Below are positions 31,733-40,648 of a stretch of 64,000 nucleotides of DNA, piece after piece. The stretch comes from Chloroflexota bacterium (lineage in GTDB: Bacteria; Chloroflexota; UBA11872; VXOZ01): NCBI GenBank assembly GCA_958295775.1, contig CATQHC010000009.1, positions 558,001 through 622,000 on the forward strand, in the 5' to 3' direction. The notes beneath the pieces are model-generated. The model was given only the letters and a program-made list of their open reading frames with translations, was not told the DNA's origin and made no database searches. A program made the translations under genes and the position numbers. Within the stretch, counting starts at the first letter, position 1, and each line of letters opens with the position of its first letter.

Positions 31733-31866
31733 GAAGCCCAGAGAGAATTGTAGGTCTATATCTTGTCCTTTCCAGGCATGACTTTGTAGAAAACTTGGGT
31801 CCAGCCAGCCTTGGTGCATGTGGTGATAGAATAGTTGCATAATTCTGTTTCCAAAGGAGCATAGGT

Positions 31867-34800
31867 TTGGACAGTCGGTTCGTCCTTCAAAAGCAGATTG
31901 GAAACGGCAGAATGAGTTCTGTCTATCTTGCTCTGGATAGCGCGTCTGGAAACGCACAAGTCGCCGTAAAAGTACTGAATACTGCCCATCCTGACGAGAT
32001 CAAACGAGAGCTATTCAAGCGCGAAACTAGCGCCTTAAAGAGGCTAAGACACCCCAATATCGTAAGGCTTTTACATAGTGGGTGGTCCGATACAGAGGAA
32101 TCGTTCTATCTCGTCCTCGAATATCTGCCTTATTCTCTCGATCGTTACTTAACAGGTGCGTTGCAAACGCAACTCAGCAGTTTTGAGAAGTATCGAGCCA
32201 TGCGAGAGCTTGCGGAGGCCCTAACTTACGCCCACTCGCAGAATGTAGTCCATCGCGATGTTAAACCCTCTAACATATTGCTCGACGTGAACGGCCGTCC
32301 AAAGCTGACGGACTTTGGCATCAGCAAACTCCTAACACATTTGACAGTGGGAGAAACACTGGCAGATTTTTGGAGTGGGGGATATGCATCACCCGAGCAA
32401 AGGGCAAGCGAACCGACCGACATCAGAGCAGATATCTATTCTTTGGGTGCTGTGTTTTTCCACCTCCTATCTGGTCAAGAGCCCCCTCCTGAAGGACCAT
32501 CTCCGTCGCTGGTAGACAATCATGTGAAGGAGTCCCCTCCGCTCAGGAACTTACTGAAGAGAATGTTAGCACCATATCCAGAAGAGCGGCTGAACAAGGG
32601 ATCGGAGTTGCTAACAGCACTTGAAAGCACCTGGCGCAATGAATTAGTGCCAAGTCACTTCCTTGAATTGACGCGTACAGCCATGAGTAACGTTGTAGCT
32701 TCAGGGTATACCACGAGCGAAGACTTCCAGGCTGTCGCAGACGCTCTCGTAGAAGACCTTGGTGGTCTGGAGTCCAATGATGTATATATTCACCGTGACA
32801 CGCGAAACCAGGAGGATCTCATTATTCTTGGGGATTCTCTTCGCCTGATATGCACCTCCGGTGAGAAGGGCGATGCGCTTGTCGTAAAGGCAGTGCAAAC
32901 TCCCTATCACCCCAACCTTGAGCGTGAGCGGGAACGTTCAATGCAATGCCGAGCGATGTGGGTCCCGGTCAAATTAGATTTTCGATCCGGAGAATGCGAT
33001 TCCTCTCTGACAATAGCAGCCGAAGAGCTAGACCATCTGTTGGCGGCACTTGACACCTATGAAAACGTTGGGGCTGTTTCACAGGAGCGCCGGCGCTCCC
33101 GCCGCGATTTCATAGAACGCTGGGACACTGAGTTGAGAAAGAGCCGGAATCGGATTGAGAGAGAAGCATTAGGTTACTCGAACGTGAGTGAAGATCCAGA
33201 CTACTTGCGGTTCACCCTAGCCGGGGCGCCGCGAGACAATCTTGACTGGGAAAACGAAGCCCCTCTTGCAGTTAGAAAGTCGCACCAGTCGCGAATACAG
33301 CCTGTTGGCAACTTAGTTGAAATCCGCGGACGCATTGTCGAAGTGGCCAAAGACAGTCGTCACTTTCATAGAGATGATACAGCTATTCCCAAAGCCGGCC
33401 TCTTGATGATCAATACTATAGAAGCCTCGACTGCCATCACGCGCCAGCAATATGCAGTGAGAGCATTCCTCCATGGTCAGATGGCTAACCCACACCTATC
33501 CAACGTCATCGTAGACCCATCCAACGCAACCCGTAGTTCGGAAAGAGATCTCGATTACTTCCAAGACTGGCTGTCGGATGATAAGAAGGAAGCGGTTAGA
33601 AGAGCCGTATCCAGCAACGAGCTGTTCCTTATTCAAGGGCCGCCTGGAACAGGCAAGACCGCCGTAATCGCTGAGATCATCCTGCAGATTCTGCAGCAGA
33701 ATCCAGACGCCCGCATCCTGCTCACATCCCAGTCAAACATTGCCGTTGATCACGCGCTCACGCAGATATCGAAAGCTGCCGGTGATGCTCTTCCTGAGAT
33801 GATCCGACTCGGTCGCGGCGAGAAGATCGGGCACGGCGGTGAACGCTGGACTTTGGAAGAGCGTGCGCGTGAATGGCGAAAGAAAGTTTTGGATGAATGC
33901 AATCCGGTGCTTGGTGATCTGCGTCAGGAAGAACGCGAAGCAAAATCTGCCGTCAAAGCAATGAATATAACAGCGGATGCAGTATCGGCAGATACAGAAG
34001 CGATAGGAGAGTGGGTAACAGAGGTGGAGGATGACGTGGCGCAACTTCAGGAATATCAACAAGAGTACGATGCACTCCCATCCGATGCCTCCGCTACCAC
34101 CAAGAGTGAAATGGCAGAAATGGTTGAGCAAACTCGCGCCCGGATAAAGAGCGACCTGGAAACACTGAATGAACTGCTACCTCAGCCAATTGACATGCAG
34201 GTCATGAGTGAAAAGGAGGCTTTGGCGGCAATCGTCAAAGCCTCTGTGTCACCTAGTATAAGCGAATCGGACATGAAAGACCCTTCGAAACGAAAGCTCC
34301 ACAAGATTCAAGAGTTGCGCAAGATACTCACGGAGTGGACAAAAGTTGCTGGTCTCACGCCGGACTTTCAGGAACTCATTGGTCGGTCGTCGCGCGTTGT
34401 GGCAGCGACATGTCTTATCAGCGGCAAGCGAAGAACCGCATCACCGGAAGAAGAGGTCGGTTTCGATTGGGCTATCGTTGACGAAGCAGGTCGGGCTACA
34501 GTTCCCGAGGTCCTTATTCCAATTGTCCAGTCCGAACGAGCAATTCTGGTGGGGGATGAACGTCAACTGCCACCAATGGTGGACGACGAGATGCTTGGCC
34601 AAGAGTCGGATAGCCCATCCGACGAGAATAGGCTCGACACTAGCCTATTCCAAAGCCTAGTCGAACAGGCGGAAGAGTCAGGCCATGACCATCTTGCCAG
34701 TCTCCGCACTCAGTATCGTATGCGCCCAGCTATTGGGAACCTGATCAGCGCAGTATTCTACGAGGGGAATTTGGAAAACGGAGAGGAGAAGCGCTCGCGA

Positions 34801-35358
34801 AGGCGCACGTTTGACTGGATGCCCGCTCCTGTAACTTGGGTATCCACATCCTCTCTGCCGGATCGTACAGAGAGTCGATATGGAGAATCATACGCCAATT
34901 CCACCGAAGCCGATATAGTGCTCAAGCTACTCGATACAATAGAGACGAAATGCCGGGAACGTAGAGAAAAGCCATCGTTAGGTGTAATCAGTGGCTATTT
35001 AGCCCAGGTACAAGAACTCATCACGCGCATCGACCCGGAAGACTCTAGTCGATGGCAGAACCTCCGTATAGAAATTGCAACTGTGGATTCATTCCAGGGG
35101 CGCGAGTGTGACATAGTAGTGTATTCAACGGTTCGCTCTAACCCAGAACGAAAAATCGGTTTCTTAAGAGACCGTCGACGGATCAATGTCGCCCTATCTC
35201 GTGCCCGTGACCTGCTTGTGATCGTTGGTGACCATCACATGATGGACACGGCTACTATTGGCGCCGATCCCAACCCGTTTGCTGCCGTGCTCGAGCATAT
35301 CCGCCAGCATGGGAACGAATGCAGAGTCATTCCGCCTGACTTGGTGAATTTACTATGA
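31867..35358 (+). CDS. Ser/Thr kinase-SF1 helicase fusion, Mokosh type I MkoA-like
   Basis: 1163 residues. TTG 31867 is fixed by AAAGGAG 7 bases upstream. Residues 1-265 are a complete protein kinase: GNGRMSSV loop, VAVK (K35), HRDVKPSN (catalytic D131), DFG (149-151) and SPEQ. A middle region of unclear fold follows (265-570). The C-terminal part is a DNA2/NAM7/UPF1-like (COG1112) helicase with Walker A GPPGTGKT (591-598), a coiled-coil insertion (about 640-830), DEAG (872-875), GDERQLPP, QYRMRP, VDSFQGRECD and RRINVALSRAR. All motifs look intact. It overlaps the downstream PLD gene by ATGA. The pairing matches the reported type I Mokosh anti-phage layout. Function here is inferred from architecture. 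Confidence 0.85.
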   Translation: MDSRFVLQKQIGNGRMSSVYLALDSASGNAQVAVKVLNTAHPDEIKRELFKRETSALKRLRHPNIVRLLHSGWSDTEESFYLVLEYLPYSLDRYLTGALQTQLSSFEKYRAMRELAEALTYAHSQNVVHRDVKPSNILLDVNGRPKLTDFGISKLLTHLTVGETLADFWSGGYASPEQRASEPTDIRADIYSLGAVFFHLLSGQEPPPEGPSPSLVDNHVKESPPLRNLLKRMLAPYPEERLNKGSELLTALESTWRNELVPSHFLELTRTAMSNVVASGYTTSEDFQAVADALVEDLGGLESNDVYIHRDTRNQEDLIILGDSLRLICTSGEKGDALVVKAVQTPYHPNLERERERSMQCRAMWVPVKLDFRSGECDSSLTIAAEELDHLLAALDTYENVGAVSQERRRSRRDFIERWDTELRKSRNRIEREALGYSNVSEDPDYLRFTLAGAPRDNLDWENEAPLAVRKSHQSRIQPVGNLVEIRGRIVEVAKDSRHFHRDDTAIPKAGLLMINTIEASTAITRQQYAVRAFLHGQMANPHLSNVIVDPSNATRSSERDLDYFQDWLSDDKKEAVRRAVSSNELFLIQGPPGTGKTAVIAEIILQILQQNPDARILLTSQSNIAVDHALTQISKAAGDALPEMIRLGRGEKIGHGGERWTLEERAREWRKKVLDECNPVLGDLRQEEREAKSAVKAMNITADAVSADTEAIGEWVTEVEDDVAQLQEYQQEYDALPSDASATTKSEMAEMVEQTRARIKSDLETLNELLPQPIDMQVMSEKEALAAIVKASVSPSISESDMKDPSKRKLHKIQELRKILTEWTKVAGLTPDFQELIGRSSRVVAATCLISGKRRTASPEEEVGFDWAIVDEAGRATVPEVLIPIVQSERAILVGDERQLPPMVDDEMLGQESDSPSDENRLDTSLFQSLVEQAEESGHDHLASLRTQYRMRPAIGNLISAVFYEGNLENGEEKRSRRRTFDWMPAPVTWVSTSSLPDRTESRYGESYANSTEADIVLKLLDTIETKCRERREKPSLGVISGYLAQVQELITRIDPEDSSRWQNLRIEIATVDSFQGRECDIVVYSTVRSNPERKIGFLRDRRRINVALSRARDLLVIVGDHHMMDTATIGADPNPFAAVLEHIRQHGNECRVIPPDLVNLL

Positions 35359-36872
35359 ACTATCCTCAAAATGAGCCTGTTGCAGTTCACGCGCGGGCAA
35401 AACGTCGTTTTCCCGACTACACGGTGGAAGCCGCTTTCCCCGTATGCTTGCCGGTCTATGAGGTTCGACTGACGGTTACCGTCATAGATGAACATAAGCT
35501 CTCTACCACTGCCCTCTTTATTCTGCGGCTGTTGTCAGTTGGCATCTCACAACCTGCCGAACTCGGCAGGTTGCTGGGCATAGCAGACAGCTTTGTGACA
35601 GGCGCTGCCGCCGAACTCCTTAGTGCAAACTTGATACGCCAACGACTTGATCAGAGAATTGAGATGACTGATCAGGGACGTACAGTGCTCAGTGATGGCG
35701 GAAAATCATTTCGTCCTCGGAATCGATCAATAAAGGTTCCTTATGATCACTTAACCAAGAAGGTCATTGACATTGACATTGATCGTCTGTTGGACAGGGA
35801 AGTCGTTCGAAAGGATGGCGCATTTATCGTTCCCGCCAGGCCTCGAAAGCCTCGTCAAGGCAATATCAGCATTGCCCAAGTAAGAAACTATGCTCGCGGA
35901 AATATCTCAAAGGAGACAGAGGTTTTCGACGTTTCTGCTCTGAAAGACACGAGACTCCGCTACCGGGATGATGTCATTTTGGTCAAGATGACTGCACCCA
36001 ACGCGAGCACGCCAATTTTCGCAGCCTACCGCGCCCAACAGTATCTTGAAGAAGAGACTGCCTCAATACAGAGATTGGCAGATAATGGCGCGGACCTAGT
36101 GCCGGAGGAATGGAAGGCAGAATCGCCTGCGTCTCGGCCAGGATCCGTAGTTGCTTCTAGTGAGGAGACGGATCTTCTTGCCACTATTGAGGAGCTCAAC
36201 CTTGAATCCAGCGAAAAGGCCCAGGCTGCTATAGAGGCAAAACTGATTAAGGGAGAAACTCAGAATGCTCAAGAACGTGCTGACCTCGAGGCTCGCATCA
36301 AAAATCTAGAGCTAGAAAAGCTGGAACTGAATAACAGGCTAGCCAAGCGTGAACATAAGCTGCATGAATTGACAAAAGGGGGAATTCGCTTGATCAAGAC
36401 TGAAGAACACCGGCCACTCCTGCTTCAAGCGATAGACAAGGCATCCTTGGAACTTACGCTTGTTTCAGCATGGATAGATCCGTATGCATTTGATAGTGAA
36501 GTATGTCACAAGCTAGCCGCTGCAATAGACAGAGGAGCAACGGTACGAATTGCCTGGGGAATGGGTGTGAATCGCCGATATGGACAAGATGGACAGCGTA
36601 ACAAGATAAAAGGGGAAAAGGCACTTGCAGAATTGAAGAAGCTGATTCCAAAGGAAAGAGATCATCAGCTAATTGACAAGGTTACAGAAACTCATGAAAA
36701 GTTCATCATCTGTGATGATATATTCTGTGCGTGGGGAAGCCTTAACTGGCTCTCCTACCGTGGAGAACTTGATCGAGGATACCGTCGAGAAACTAGCTCC
36801 TACTCAGAAAGACCTAGCGACATCATTCTATGGCAGACTAATGCCGCGACTCTCTTTAAACCAATGAGTTAG
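35355..36872 (+). CDS. Winged-helix/coiled-coil/PLD nuclease-like protein, MkoB-like
   Basis: 505 residues. ATG 35355 overlaps the kinase-helicase stop (ATGA), implying translational coupling. Residues about 45-115 look like a winged helix (LFILRLLSVGISQPAELGRLLGI...MTDQGRTVLSDGG). Residues about 285-345 are a charged coiled coil. The C-terminal domain has one phospholipase-D motif, H447-E-K449-x4-D454 with G461-S-L-N464, and a downstream Glu-rich loop. One HKD motif per chain implies a dimeric active site, probably a nuclease rather than a lipase. No membrane segment or signal peptide. Defence effector role is inference from the Mokosh-like pairing. Confidence 0.82.
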   Translation: MNYPQNEPVAVHARAKRRFPDYTVEAAFPVCLPVYEVRLTVTVIDEHKLSTTALFILRLLSVGISQPAELGRLLGIADSFVTGAAAELLSANLIRQRLDQRIEMTDQGRTVLSDGGKSFRPRNRSIKVPYDHLTKKVIDIDIDRLLDREVVRKDGAFIVPARPRKPRQGNISIAQVRNYARGNISKETEVFDVSALKDTRLRYRDDVILVKMTAPNASTPIFAAYRAQQYLEEETASIQRLADNGADLVPEEWKAESPASRPGSVVASSEETDLLATIEELNLESSEKAQAAIEAKLIKGETQNAQERADLEARIKNLELEKLELNNRLAKREHKLHELTKGGIRLIKTEEHRPLLLQAIDKASLELTLVSAWIDPYAFDSEVCHKLAAAIDRGATVRIAWGMGVNRRYGQDGQRNKIKGEKALAELKKLIPKERDHQLIDKVTETHEKFIICDDIFCAWGSLNWLSYRGELDRGYRRETSSYSERPSDIILWQTNAATLFKPMS

Positions 36873-36911
36873 GAACCTTGCCCAAGATGATGTTAACCAT
36901 CCGCCCAAGGA

Positions 36912-36944
36912 GCATGGGAAAAGTTCCCACGCTTACAGTTTATT
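36912..36944 (+). terminator. Candidate terminator after the Mokosh-like operon
   Basis: TGGGAA-AAG-TTCCCA forms a 6-bp stem extended by flanking GC/GC pairs across one mismatch, followed by TTACAGTTTATT. It lies about 40 bases after the PLD gene stop. Confidence 0.5.
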
Positions 36945-36957
36945 AGCGATAATTGGC

Positions 36958-36988
36958 CGTCATTCCCGCGCACGCGGAAATCCATCTT
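36958..36988. repeat. ATTCCCGC-type hairpin repeat (family C)
   Basis: CGTCATTCCCGCGCACGCGG continues AAATCCATCTT, the reverse orientation of the 15371 copy. It marks the right edge of the AT-rich island. Confidence 0.5.
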
Positions 36989-37009
36989 CACGTGACGTTG
37001 CCTGTGCGG

Positions 37010-38293
37010 CTACGCTTCTAGCGTGGAACAGGCTTCCCTCACCACCGTGGCAACGTCATCGCCCCGCGCGAGGCCCTCCACGATAGCATTCATGGCGCGC
37101 TGCATGAGCAGGTTCTGGGGTAGCCCGCGTCCATGTTCCAGCGATTGCTGTATTGCCGCGATCTCTGCGGGGAGAAGGTTCTCGTCGAAGTCGCCAAGGC
37201 GCGCTACCGCATCTCTCCGCGCGGGCACTTTCGCGAGCGGCTGCATGACGTCGACGAGACCCTTGAGCGCCGTATAGGCCGTCTCCATGTTCTGCGAGCG
37301 CGCGGCAATGGCAATGCCCATATTGCCAGCCACCGGAACGCTGCGCACTTTGCCCTGTGGCAACGCCGCCCAGCGATAACCGGCTCTCGAGAAGTACTGT
37401 TGTGGTAGGTACAGCATTGCCGGCCACAACCTTGATGCCGATTCAGAATCCTGCCACTCAAACACACTCGTCACAGGCGGGGCAACCCGATGGGTATGCA
37501 GCAGGTCGCGGCAGAAGTGCAGAGCCTCCGCGGCCGCCGGATCCTGCAGCAGGCAACTCATTGTCGTCGGATCGGCCAACTCTGCCTCATTTTGCCACAA
37601 CGCCCACCAGTATCCGCTCTCTTGTGTAAACAGTCCCCAGCGCTGCGCCTCGCCTTTTTCATTGCGTTGCGTCAATTTGACTGAGTTCTCCACTAAGTCA
37701 TCCCAGCCCCAACTATCGTCCACCGCAGGCACGCCCCGCTCCGCGAAGTACGCAGAATCATAGTGAACCATCAATGGGTTTGCGTCGACCGGCAAAGCGA
37801 ACAGCCCGCCCTCCGACCGAAACTGATCGACCAGGTACGGGAAGTGCCCTTGGATGAGCGTCGGTTCATCAGCGGCGATGAACTGGTCCAAGGGCGCTAG
37901 CACGCCCTGCTCTCCCAGCCATTGCGCCAAGAAGGGATTCACGGTGAATAAGTCCGCATCGAGGCTCTGGTACCACGCCAGAAACTCCTCCTGATTTCTG
38001 GGGCGGGGATTAGCTTGCTCTGGGGAAACGAGGCCCGACTGCAAGGTGTAGCCCCCCATAGTGGGACCATTGGGGTTTTCCGTGTCAGCCAGCAATGCCG
38101 CCATTACCTTTTCAAGCGTATTGGGCATACGCCGCGCAAAACCGGTCGATACACGCAGTTCGCTAAACCACGTGGATGCCCAGATTAGCTCTCCCTCTTT
38201 ACTTCGGGTCGGCAGCGACGTTGCAGACCCGGGGGCGCCGCAGGCGGCCGCTAGCGCTGCTGTGCCTGCCAACAATGTTCGGCGTGTTAGCAT
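37010..38293 (-). CDS. Extracellular solute-binding lipoprotein (ABC type), paralog 1
   Basis: 427 residues. A twin-arginine lipoprotein signal, MLTRRTLLAG with lipobox LAAAC (C18), predicts export and lipid anchoring. The remainder is a family-1 type solute-binding protein, with FTVNPFLAQWL, FALPVDANPLMVHYDSAYFAERGVP and PQGKVRSVPVAGNMGIAIA typical of sugar-binding proteins of the MalE/UgpB kind. No permease or ATPase genes are adjacent, so it must work with transporter parts encoded elsewhere. It is a close relative of the proteins at 38997 and the remnant at 38513. Confidence 0.85.
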   Translation of the reverse strand: MLTRRTLLAGTAALAAACGAPGSATSLPTRSKEGELIWASTWFSELRVSTGFARRMPNTLEKVMAALLADTENPNGPTMGGYTLQSGLVSPEQANPRPRNQEEFLAWYQSLDADLFTVNPFLAQWLGEQGVLAPLDQFIAADEPTLIQGHFPYLVDQFRSEGGLFALPVDANPLMVHYDSAYFAERGVPAVDDSWGWDDLVENSVKLTQRNEKGEAQRWGLFTQESGYWWALWQNEAELADPTTMSCLLQDPAAAEALHFCRDLLHTHRVAPPVTSVFEWQDSESASRLWPAMLYLPQQYFSRAGYRWAALPQGKVRSVPVAGNMGIAIAARSQNMETAYTALKGLVDVMQPLAKVPARRDAVARLGDFDENLLPAEIAAIQQSLEHGRGLPQNLLMQRAMNAIVEGLARGDDVATVVREACSTLEA

Positions 38294-38512
38294 CTTTTCT
38301 TGTTCCTTTCAACGCTTTCGTTGATCTCACGTTTCGGCTCGTTCTCTAGAGATCGTTACACCTTTCCCGCATATGGTCGCTCCACCAGGAATACAATCCA
38401 GTGCCTGTCAGCGAAATTATCCCAGCGAGCGTCCTCCCGAAATGTCAAATTGCGGGAAGAACCGTCATTTGCCGATAACCCCCTAAATGTAATCCTCTCC
38501 TCAAGCCCGCCG

Positions 38513-38924
38513 TTAATCTTCTATCCAAGAACAAGCTGCGTTTACGAGTGTCGACACCCGGTCGCCGCGCACCAGACCTTCTGTGATTTTCTGCATGGCG
38601 CCGGACGTCAACTCGTCCCACGGCAGCGGGCGCCCATATTCCAAAGAATTCTGAACGGCCGTCACCTCTTCGGGCAGGAGGCCCGGCCGCATCTCTGCCA
38701 GCCGCGCGACCGCCTCTCTCTGCGCAGGCACCGCGACAAACCGCTGCATGGCTTGCAGCAGGCCCTGTAAGGCCACATATGCCGTCTCTGTGTGCTCCCG
38801 TCCGCGCGACAATCGCAAGTCCGATAACTTGGGGCTGGCTCGGCGCGGAGAATGAAGACTCGAGAGTACTACACCCGGCCGCCAGCGCCGTTGTGCTCGC
38901 AATCAATGCGCGACGGGTAAGCAT
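38513..38924 (-). pseudogene. Remnant of a third solute-binding lipoprotein gene
   Basis: The N-terminus survives in one frame (MLTRRALIAS, lipobox LAAGC, C18) to about residue 40 (GLAIVAR). The C-terminal about 90 residues continue in another frame (HTETAYVALQGLLQAMQRF ... ACSWIED), aligning with the end of the paralog at 37010 (NMETAYTALKGLVDVM). About 300 internal residues are missing and one frameshift lies at the junction. The track's two overlapping ORFs (38445..38924 and 38513..38902) are the two halves. It sits between two intact paralogs. Confidence 0.85.
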
Positions 38925-38996
38925 TGTTCTGCTCCCTTCAGGCTGCCTTCAGTCTCGATTCTCGGCGTATTCCCTGCACCGTGAATCTTTCCTCGC

Positions 38997-40340
38997 TCAC
39001 ACGCGGGCACAGGCCCTGCTCGTAATGGCCTCAACATGGTCACCGCGTACGAGCGCCGCCAAAATTCGGTCCAACCCCGGCGCGGCCTCTCGCGTGAGCT
39101 GGAAGGCCGCATCTCCCATGCTGAGCGCCTGCGCCAGCGTAGGAATTCCGTCGTTCATTGGGACTCCTTGCGGCAGCATGCGGCCGTGCTCCAGGGACGC
39201 CTGCACGGCCGCGACTTCGGCGGGACGGAGGTTGCGGCGGAACTTGGCAAGCTGCGCGACCGCTTCCCTCTTCGCCGGCACGCTCACGTACTGCTGCATG
39301 ATGCCGACCAGACCCTTGAGCGCCGTCGCTGCCGCTTCGAGGTCTTCCGTCCAGTCCGTAATCGCAATGCTCATGTCGCTGTACACCGGCACACTGCGCA
39401 CCTTGCCGTGGGGCAATTTCGCCCAGCGGTAATCTCCATTCCACATGTGTTGGCGTGGGGTATAGAACATGGCGGGCCACGAGTCTGCGGTAACCTCGTA
39501 CAACTTCGCTGCATCATCGCTCATCAGCGGTGGTGATACGCGATGGTTGTGCAGCAGATTGCTATAGAACTCCAAGGCTTCGCCAGCGGCCGGATCCTGC
39601 AAGCAGCACTCCCCCGTCTCGGGATCGCGAAGCTCCGCCTCGTTTTGCCACAGCATCCACCACAGCCCGTAGCGGTGGGCCTCAAATCCCCAGTGCTCGG
39701 TAGCGCCGCTTTCATCACGCCGTGTCAACGTCACCGCGCTCTCCACCAGGGCATCCCAGTTCCAGCCACTATCGACAGGCGGCACCCCGGCGGCCGCAAA
39801 ATAGCGGGCGTCGTAGTAGAGCATCAGTGGCAGCGCGTTCACCGGCAATGCGTAGAGTGAGCCTTCGAAGCGGTACGGATCGAGCAGGTAGGGGTAGAAT
39901 TCCTGGGTAAGGAGCTTGCTGTCGGCGCTCAGCACACGGTCTATGGGCAGGAGCACGCGCTGGTCTGCCAAAGCCCGCACCATCGGGGCAGGCAGCGACA
40001 GGAGGTCAACTTCCAAGGAGCCTAGCCAATCAACAAGCTGACCCCAACTTGCGGGATAGGGATGCCAGTTCTCGATGAGGCGCGGAGTCACGCGGTAGTT
40101 GCCGCGCACTGGGCCGTTGGGGTTTTCCTTATCTTCCCCCAACGCCGCGACCGCGCTTTGGAGTTTCGCGAGGAGGTCCTGCTCACGCGCAGCAGGTTCG
40201 TACAATCCGCCAAAGGTCAGGGAGAACCAGGTGAGTTCGGCCGGTTTCGGCAGACTTGGAACTAACAGAAAAGACCTCATAGGCCCACAACCGGCGCCAA
40301 GCGCGGCCGCACCTATCACTAAAGCTCGGCGTGAAAGCAT
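38997..40340 (-). CDS. Extracellular solute-binding lipoprotein (ABC type), paralog 2
   Basis: 447 residues from ATG 40340; the track's TTG 40358 adds six residues before the signal. Tat-like lipoprotein signal MLSRRALVIG with lipobox LGAGC (C18). It shares with the 37010 protein the ENPNGP motif, YALPVNALPLMLYYDARYF, the CCLQDPAAGEAL region and GKVRSVPVYSDMSIAI. It is probably a carbohydrate or oligosaccharide binding protein. No permease genes follow. The upstream gap (40341-40805) holds repeats only. Confidence 0.85.
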   Translation of the reverse strand: MLSRRALVIGAAALGAGCGPMRSFLLVPSLPKPAELTWFSLTFGGLYEPAAREQDLLAKLQSAVAALGEDKENPNGPVRGNYRVTPRLIENWHPYPASWGQLVDWLGSLEVDLLSLPAPMVRALADQRVLLPIDRVLSADSKLLTQEFYPYLLDPYRFEGSLYALPVNALPLMLYYDARYFAAAGVPPVDSGWNWDALVESAVTLTRRDESGATEHWGFEAHRYGLWWMLWQNEAELRDPETGECCLQDPAAGEALEFYSNLLHNHRVSPPLMSDDAAKLYEVTADSWPAMFYTPRQHMWNGDYRWAKLPHGKVRSVPVYSDMSIAITDWTEDLEAAATALKGLVGIMQQYVSVPAKREAVAQLAKFRRNLRPAEVAAVQASLEHGRMLPQGVPMNDGIPTLAQALSMGDAAFQLTREAAPGLDRILAALVRGDHVEAITSRACARV

Positions 40341-40648
40341 CGCGCCCTGCCTCTGCAATGACGCTACGTAGTTGCGTACGTGCTCTCAGCCCCCTCACCG
40401 CATACCCACACTCTTGGAAGCAGATATGCCACTCTCTTTAATTATGGTAGCACAATCTGTCAATCATTTTAGCCGGAAGATTCCGTGCTGCGGCGAAGAC
40501 TTGACTGAACGGCGGGCTTGGCCCTGTTACACAGGAAGTTGCGATTTTGTGATGAGTACTCCCCACTAGACCGAAAGTAACGGGTGCAGTCTGGAGTCCT
40601 AAAGGTGAGTAGAAGCTATCTCATTAATCGGTTCGACGGCCAATTTGT

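Follow-up and report, generated by a model that had tools for sequence, protein, structure and literature searches.

The two-gene operon described here, which lies within the window (the whole stretch of 64,000 nucleotides of Chloroflexota DNA that was analysed), is very probably a horizontally acquired, chromosomal Mokosh system of type I, belonging to the short-MkoA lineage and with a predicted anti-phage role. The domains, the intact catalytic residues, the family membership and the horizontal gain are established by sequence analysis, and the gene pair is a typical member of the already known Mokosh type I anti-phage family. This copy is an intact member in a phylum where the family is rare, a strong MkoA match being present in only 2 of the 301 phylum genomes sampled. 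Moreover, the relatives of the pair give a testable idea, namely that the helicase and the N-terminal half of MkoB form a core from which nuclease, kinase and phosphatase parts may be lost or exchanged.

Domain architecture of MkoA and MkoB

Open reading frames, Pfam and AlphaFold2 all agree with the operon proposed by an earlier sequence-only reading, in which a gene fusing an intact kinase to an intact SF1 helicase (mkoA) is followed, with an ATGA overlap between its end and the start of the next gene, by one encoding a winged helix, a coiled coil and a single HKD motif (mkoB; Table 1). The residues named in that reading (K35, D131, the DFG motif, K597 and H447) are correct and are conserved in homologues.

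The kinase of MkoA begins at residue 6 and retains K35, E53, HRD129-131, N136 and DFG149-151 (D149-G151); no NERD match was found among the 25 best Pfam families for this protein. In the helicase core, Pfam places AAA_11 at residues 569-905 and AAA_12 at residues 923-1123, and the motifs comprise Walker A (GPPGTGKT, 591-598, with K597/T598), DEAG (872-875) and motif VI (VALSRAR). The AlphaFold2 model of MkoA, built from a 9-row alignment, is of modest confidence (pLDDT 68.7). It contains a long helical insertion in the helicase core (residues 663-841) and, ahead of the RecA core and at low to medium confidence, a helix (381-431), a set of strands (434-515) and a further helix (518-535). The best Foldseek matches to this model were the Senataxin-ssRNA, Ighmbp2-RNA and Upf1-RNA complexes, over ∼ 780 columns. 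MkoA is also matched by TIGR00376, and sequence-profile matches in the PDB include Senataxin, Ighmbp2, Upf1 and DNA2.

A stalk, then 1B, then the RecA core is the domain order of Upf1-like helicases. The predicted stalk and 1B order, together with the Foldseek matches, therefore suggests that approximately half of the 300-residue middle region of MkoA belongs to the helicase. The same region holds an α/β domain of 110 residues (263-373) with 16-23% identity to relatives. The sequence-only reading had placed the MkoA middle region and the MkoB N-terminus outside the known description of the family; both in fact lie inside the family profiles, and the N-terminal half recurs across the MkoB types, so that the claim is only partly right.

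In MkoB, the PDLC03922 profile covers residues 30-428 plus a second stretch, the best stretch ending at profile position 380 of 610. Searched against the PDB, a profile built from MkoB relatives hits MarR-type winged helices (E 2e-4), and AlphaFold2 predicts a second β region near residues 188-226. Pfam PLDc_2 matches residues 356-465 at 27.5 bits against a cut-off of 27, a margin of 0.5 bit. The HxKx4D motif is H447/K449/D454 (H447-E-K449-x4-D454), followed by GSLNW, and the HKD is invariant in an alignment of the window MkoB with six distant relatives. The AlphaFold2 model, built from a 7-row alignment, is again of modest confidence (pLDDT 68.5); pTM was 0.37 for MkoB and 0.42 for MkoA, both at a pLDDT of about 68. 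Foldseek matches to the MkoB model included TrmBL2, the TrmB sugar-binding domain, Nuc, NucT and Zucchini. Nucleases with a single HKD, Nuc among them, work as dimers, in which two chains build one active site, and the predicted coiled coil of MkoB fits this habit.

Table 1. Positions of the operon, its domains and related features. Coordinates are those of the window unless a locus is given.
Feature	Position	Strand	Evidence
Horizontally acquired insert, two-gene operon as sole content	31733..37009		Between two convergent chromosomal genes
Shine-Dalgarno-like AAAGGAG	31853..31859	+	7 nt upstream of the mkoA TTG start; read directly in the sequence
mkoA, kinase-helicase, 1163 aa, TTG start	31867..35358	+	PADLOC MkoA PDLC03920, E 2e-227, 756 bits
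Hanks-type Ser/Thr kinase domain, aa 6-243	31882..32595	+	Pfam Pkinase E 4.6e-44; residue conservation; Foldseek to PknB
α/β domain after kinase, aa 263-373	32653..32985	+	AlphaFold2 secondary structure; inside family profile
Helical stalk, 1B β-barrel and second stalk helix of Upf1-like SF1B helicase, aa 381-535	33007..33471	+	AlphaFold2, Foldseek
SF1 helicase core, aa 569-1123	33571..35235	+	Pfam AAA_11, AAA_12; AlphaFold2; motif table
mkoB, winged helix + coiled coil + single-HKD PLD, 505 aa	35355..36872	+	PADLOC MkoB PDLC03922 E 2.5e-43; PDLC03923 E 1.9e-12
N-terminal β + winged-helix region, MkoB aa 23-131	35421..35747	+	AlphaFold2 elements
Coiled coil, MkoB aa 269-342	36159..36380	+	AlphaFold2 helices 269-298 and 305-342
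PLD nuclease-like domain, MkoB aa 344-500, one HKD	36384..36854	+	PLDc_2; Foldseek to Nuc, NucT, Zucchini
Three-gene Mokosh form with a PP2C phosphatase gene, Rhizobiales plasmids	L016:8397-9179, L108:8637-9422, L109:8619-9344, L110:8364-9182, L111:8559-9368		

Membership of the Mokosh type I family

Type I Mokosh consists of a COG1112 RNA helicase with an added Ser/Thr kinase domain, together with a PLD nuclease encoded by a separate gene (PMC11672841). The window operon has the same composition. Its kinase is fused to a COG1112-type SF1 helicase (PDLC03920; Pkinase, AAA_11 and AAA_12), a call that rests on the Upf1/Ighmbp2-type core seen with TIGR00376 and in the PDB matches. A separate gene for a PLD-family nuclease is adjacent (PDLC03922, PLDc_2, HKD and the ATGA overlap), and the catalytic residues are intact in kinase, helicase and PLD alike. 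The two genes are separate and match MkoC, the single fused helicase-PLD protein of type II, only in part; nor does the window MkoA carry the N-terminal NERD domain of the long lineage.

The PADLOC search suggested in the sequence-only reading returned MkoA and MkoB models for the two genes (Table 1). PDLC03920 covers the mkoA product end to end, residues 4-1154 corresponding to profile positions 9-1107 of 1112. In the same genome only one further match to the MkoA profile exists, at 53.6 bits as compared with 756 bits here. Since in 13 of 14 control genomes this profile otherwise picks up ordinary helicases or kinases, the difference indicates that the full-length match is specific. Taken together, the lengths of the frames, their domain content and the matches to the family over the full length exclude chance.

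The same adjacent gene order and an intact HKD were found in 12 relatives (L010-L015 and L023-L028), which come from plasmids of cyanobacteria and Streptomyces as well as from other genomes, and in a genome of the same phylum (G180), where identity is 38%. Relatives carried by plasmids were found in cyanobacteria, Streptomyces, Rhizobiales and mycobacteria, with further relatives in Streptomyces, Cryobacterium, Pseudactinotalea, a Phycisphaerae MAG and a Saprospiraceae MAG. MkoA is 24-38% identical to the aligned relatives and MkoB about 15-27%. Eight helicase motif residues do not vary among the 18 members compared, and the kinase residues are intact in the window copy and in nearly all other members; L028 has a degenerate kinase and L027 is without E53 and R130. 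Separately, in a Vicinamibacterales MAG (L031:7839-9500) an MkoA relative is apparently cut off past Walker A by a transposase-like frame.

In a quick tree of 84 helicase domains, whose deeper forks are weakly supported, the window copy joins that of G180 (SH-aLRT 99). Both fall inside a 15-row group (88) in which every row is a kinase-helicase followed by an MkoB gene, and this group is separate from both the long NERD lineage and the other SF1 helicases. The helicase thus groups with Mokosh type I rather than with housekeeping helicases, a placement that speaks against a housekeeping origin. The proposal of a type I Mokosh system in the sequence-only reading is borne out by full-length matches to both profiles, MkoA and MkoB, by the definition of type I in the literature and by this tree.

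Horizontal gain and alternative explanations

The insert is 5.3 kb in size, and GC content is ∼ 51% across the operon versus ∼ 60% outside. In one congener (G033, locus L021) the ends of the flanking convergent genes are ∼ 100 bp apart and the operon is absent, which constitutes an empty site. Three further congeners keep the flanking gene, have no strong MkoA match and carry other sequence or duplicated transporter genes at this position; in all, the MkoA profile search gave no strong match in four congeners. The drop in GC, the empty site and the plasmid relatives agree with an accessory, horizontally moving Mokosh type I gene set, a pattern that is typical of defence systems without being a strict definition of them. 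As judged from these sequence comparisons, the operon is horizontally gained and chromosomal.

Among the ten flanking proteins scanned no defence genes were found. These proteins are metabolic, transport or unassigned and include pyruvate kinase, a MOFRL-family protein, solute-binding proteins, an acetyltransferase and an esterase-like protein. The two genes are alone in the insert and, given the flanking genes as scanned, are therefore lone cargo rather than a component of a defence island. Scanning for promoters and terminators yielded nothing beyond the level of shuffled sequence. The solute-binding protein genes adjoining the insert (window 37010-40358) are apparently duplicated in some congeners, with several matches in each of L019, L020 and L022. 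A virus-borne origin was considered and rejected, as no MkoB relative was present in viral contigs and the MkoA profile had only five matches there, four of them short.

Two other explanations of the operon were weighed. It could be a housekeeping module, in which a kinase-regulated Upf1-like helicase and a nuclease would serve RNA turnover or repair and not defence; the resemblance of the helicase core to Ighmbp2 and Upf1 and the lack of a defence island among the flanking proteins are both compatible with this. However, the operon is missing from four congeners in which the flanking gene is preserved, vertical inheritance across the genus is not seen, and strong matches are as scarce in the phylum as noted above. 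The low GC, the frequency of relatives on plasmids and the grouping of the helicase with Mokosh-type operons point the same way. A housekeeping role is very unlikely, and a housekeeping helicase was rejected on the evidence of the helicase tree and the empty site.

The sequence-only reading had also kept a fallback, that of a new kinase-helicase-nuclease defence system merely resembling Mokosh, and the divergence of MkoB from its relatives would accord with it, as would the early end of the best MkoB profile stretch. Set against this, the match to MkoA spans the full length, each of the two genes hits the partner model expected for it, the genes stand in the same order and no hallmark of type I is lacking. 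Since the two family profiles, the order of the genes and the hallmarks all fit Mokosh type I, the fallback was abandoned, and it now has next to no likelihood. Assignment to Mokosh type I is retained in what follows.

Predicted mechanism and nucleic acid target

In the mechanism envisaged for the type I Mokosh pair, MkoA would load on nucleic acid of phage origin, RNA or RNA-DNA intermediates being the most likely form. The complex would be switched by hydrolysis of ATP and by signalling of the kinase, through either autophosphorylation or phosphorylation of MkoB, and an MkoB dimer would then cut nucleic acid and stop phage production. An RNA target is favoured because the helicase relatives Senataxin, Ighmbp2 and Upf1 are RNA-bound and because an S1 domain is present in the MkoB of the mycobacterial plasmid pRAW. 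Mokosh has been stated to degrade viral transcripts (PMC11291487), and no experimental test of transcript degradation by Mokosh was found in the literature searched.

A DNA target, which competes with the RNA step only and not with the family assignment, has a modest chance of applying instead; the SF1B helicase would then track phage replication DNA or R-loops and the PLD would degrade DNA. The bacterial PLD folds nearest to MkoB by Foldseek, those of Nuc and NucT, belong to nucleases that act on DNA, and the helicase profile matches DNA2 as well. Hachiman, another helicase-nuclease system, senses DNA damage according to one report (PMC12278908), which also counts for DNA. On the other hand, the top structural matches of the helicase are the RNA-bound proteins, and an RNA-binding domain is found in the mycobacterial MkoB.

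Variation of output parts across the family

Five rhizobial plasmids, comprising all five such loci looked at, carry a kinase-helicase, an MkoB without the HKD and, directly after it, a PP2C phosphatase gene (Table 1), the PP2C identity being confirmed by Pfam for L016 and given by annotation only for L108, L109, L110 and L111. These five cases may represent one single event. A literature search found no paper naming both Mokosh and PP2C. On Mycobacterium marinum plasmid pRAW (L112:6959-8812), an MkoB relative without the HKD histidine carries an S1 RNA-binding domain at its C-terminus (residues 531-602).

In the long MkoA lineage (L017, L049 and L067) a NERD nuclease domain is added at the N-terminus of MkoA, and the kinase is degenerate or partial. 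No PLD match was found in the L017 MkoB, the long-lineage MkoB examined, which looks like a change of effector. In Thermogemmatispora (L032:4897-10843) three genes in a row encode a Trypsin_2-kinase protein, a Mokosh-like helicase and an MkoB-like protein without PLD. Bacillaceae and relatives (L039, L048 and L092) have helicases of 1245-1294 aa followed by proteins of 249-268 aa that match the N-terminal region of MkoB only.

The loss of the HKD in the rhizobial members and the degenerate kinase of L028 indicate that neither activity is indispensable family-wide. From this small, unevenly sampled set, Mokosh can tentatively be read as a modular platform, in which a fixed Upf1-like helicase and an N-terminal winged-helix adaptor in MkoB would be combined with exchangeable outputs. 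On such a reading the outputs would be the HKD PLD, NERD on the long MkoA, PP2C with loss of the HKD, S1, and a separate trypsin-kinase. The kinase would act as a switch, opposed by PP2C where this is present, and the MkoB N-terminus would couple sensor to effector.

Comparison with known systems

Nuc, NucT and Zucchini share the single-HKD PLD fold with MkoB, and TrmB proteins are transcription regulators; MkoB differs from all of these, and from TrmBL2, in adding a β/winged-helix N-terminus and in having MkoA as a partner. Upf1, Ighmbp2 and Senataxin have the stalk, 1B and RecA core of MkoA, but are cellular eukaryotic proteins without a fused kinase and without an operonic PLD partner. Mokosh type II has an SF1 helicase and a PLD in common with the window pair, whose proteins match the corresponding parts of MkoC; type II is, however, a single fused protein with the helicase N-terminal, the PLD C-terminal and no kinase (PMC11672841).

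Within type I, the long-MkoA lineage (PDLC03921 and PDLC03923) shares a kinase-like region, the SF1 helicase and the MkoB N-terminal winged-helix region, whereas its MkoA adds an N-terminal NERD domain, its kinase is degenerate or partial and its MkoB (L017) gives no PLD match. The short-MkoA lineage (PDLC03920 and PDLC03922) has the same arrangement as the window operon, an STK-helicase gene followed by a winged-helix/coiled-coil/single-HKD PLD gene; the window copy, a lone chromosomal insertion, differs from it only in sequence divergence.
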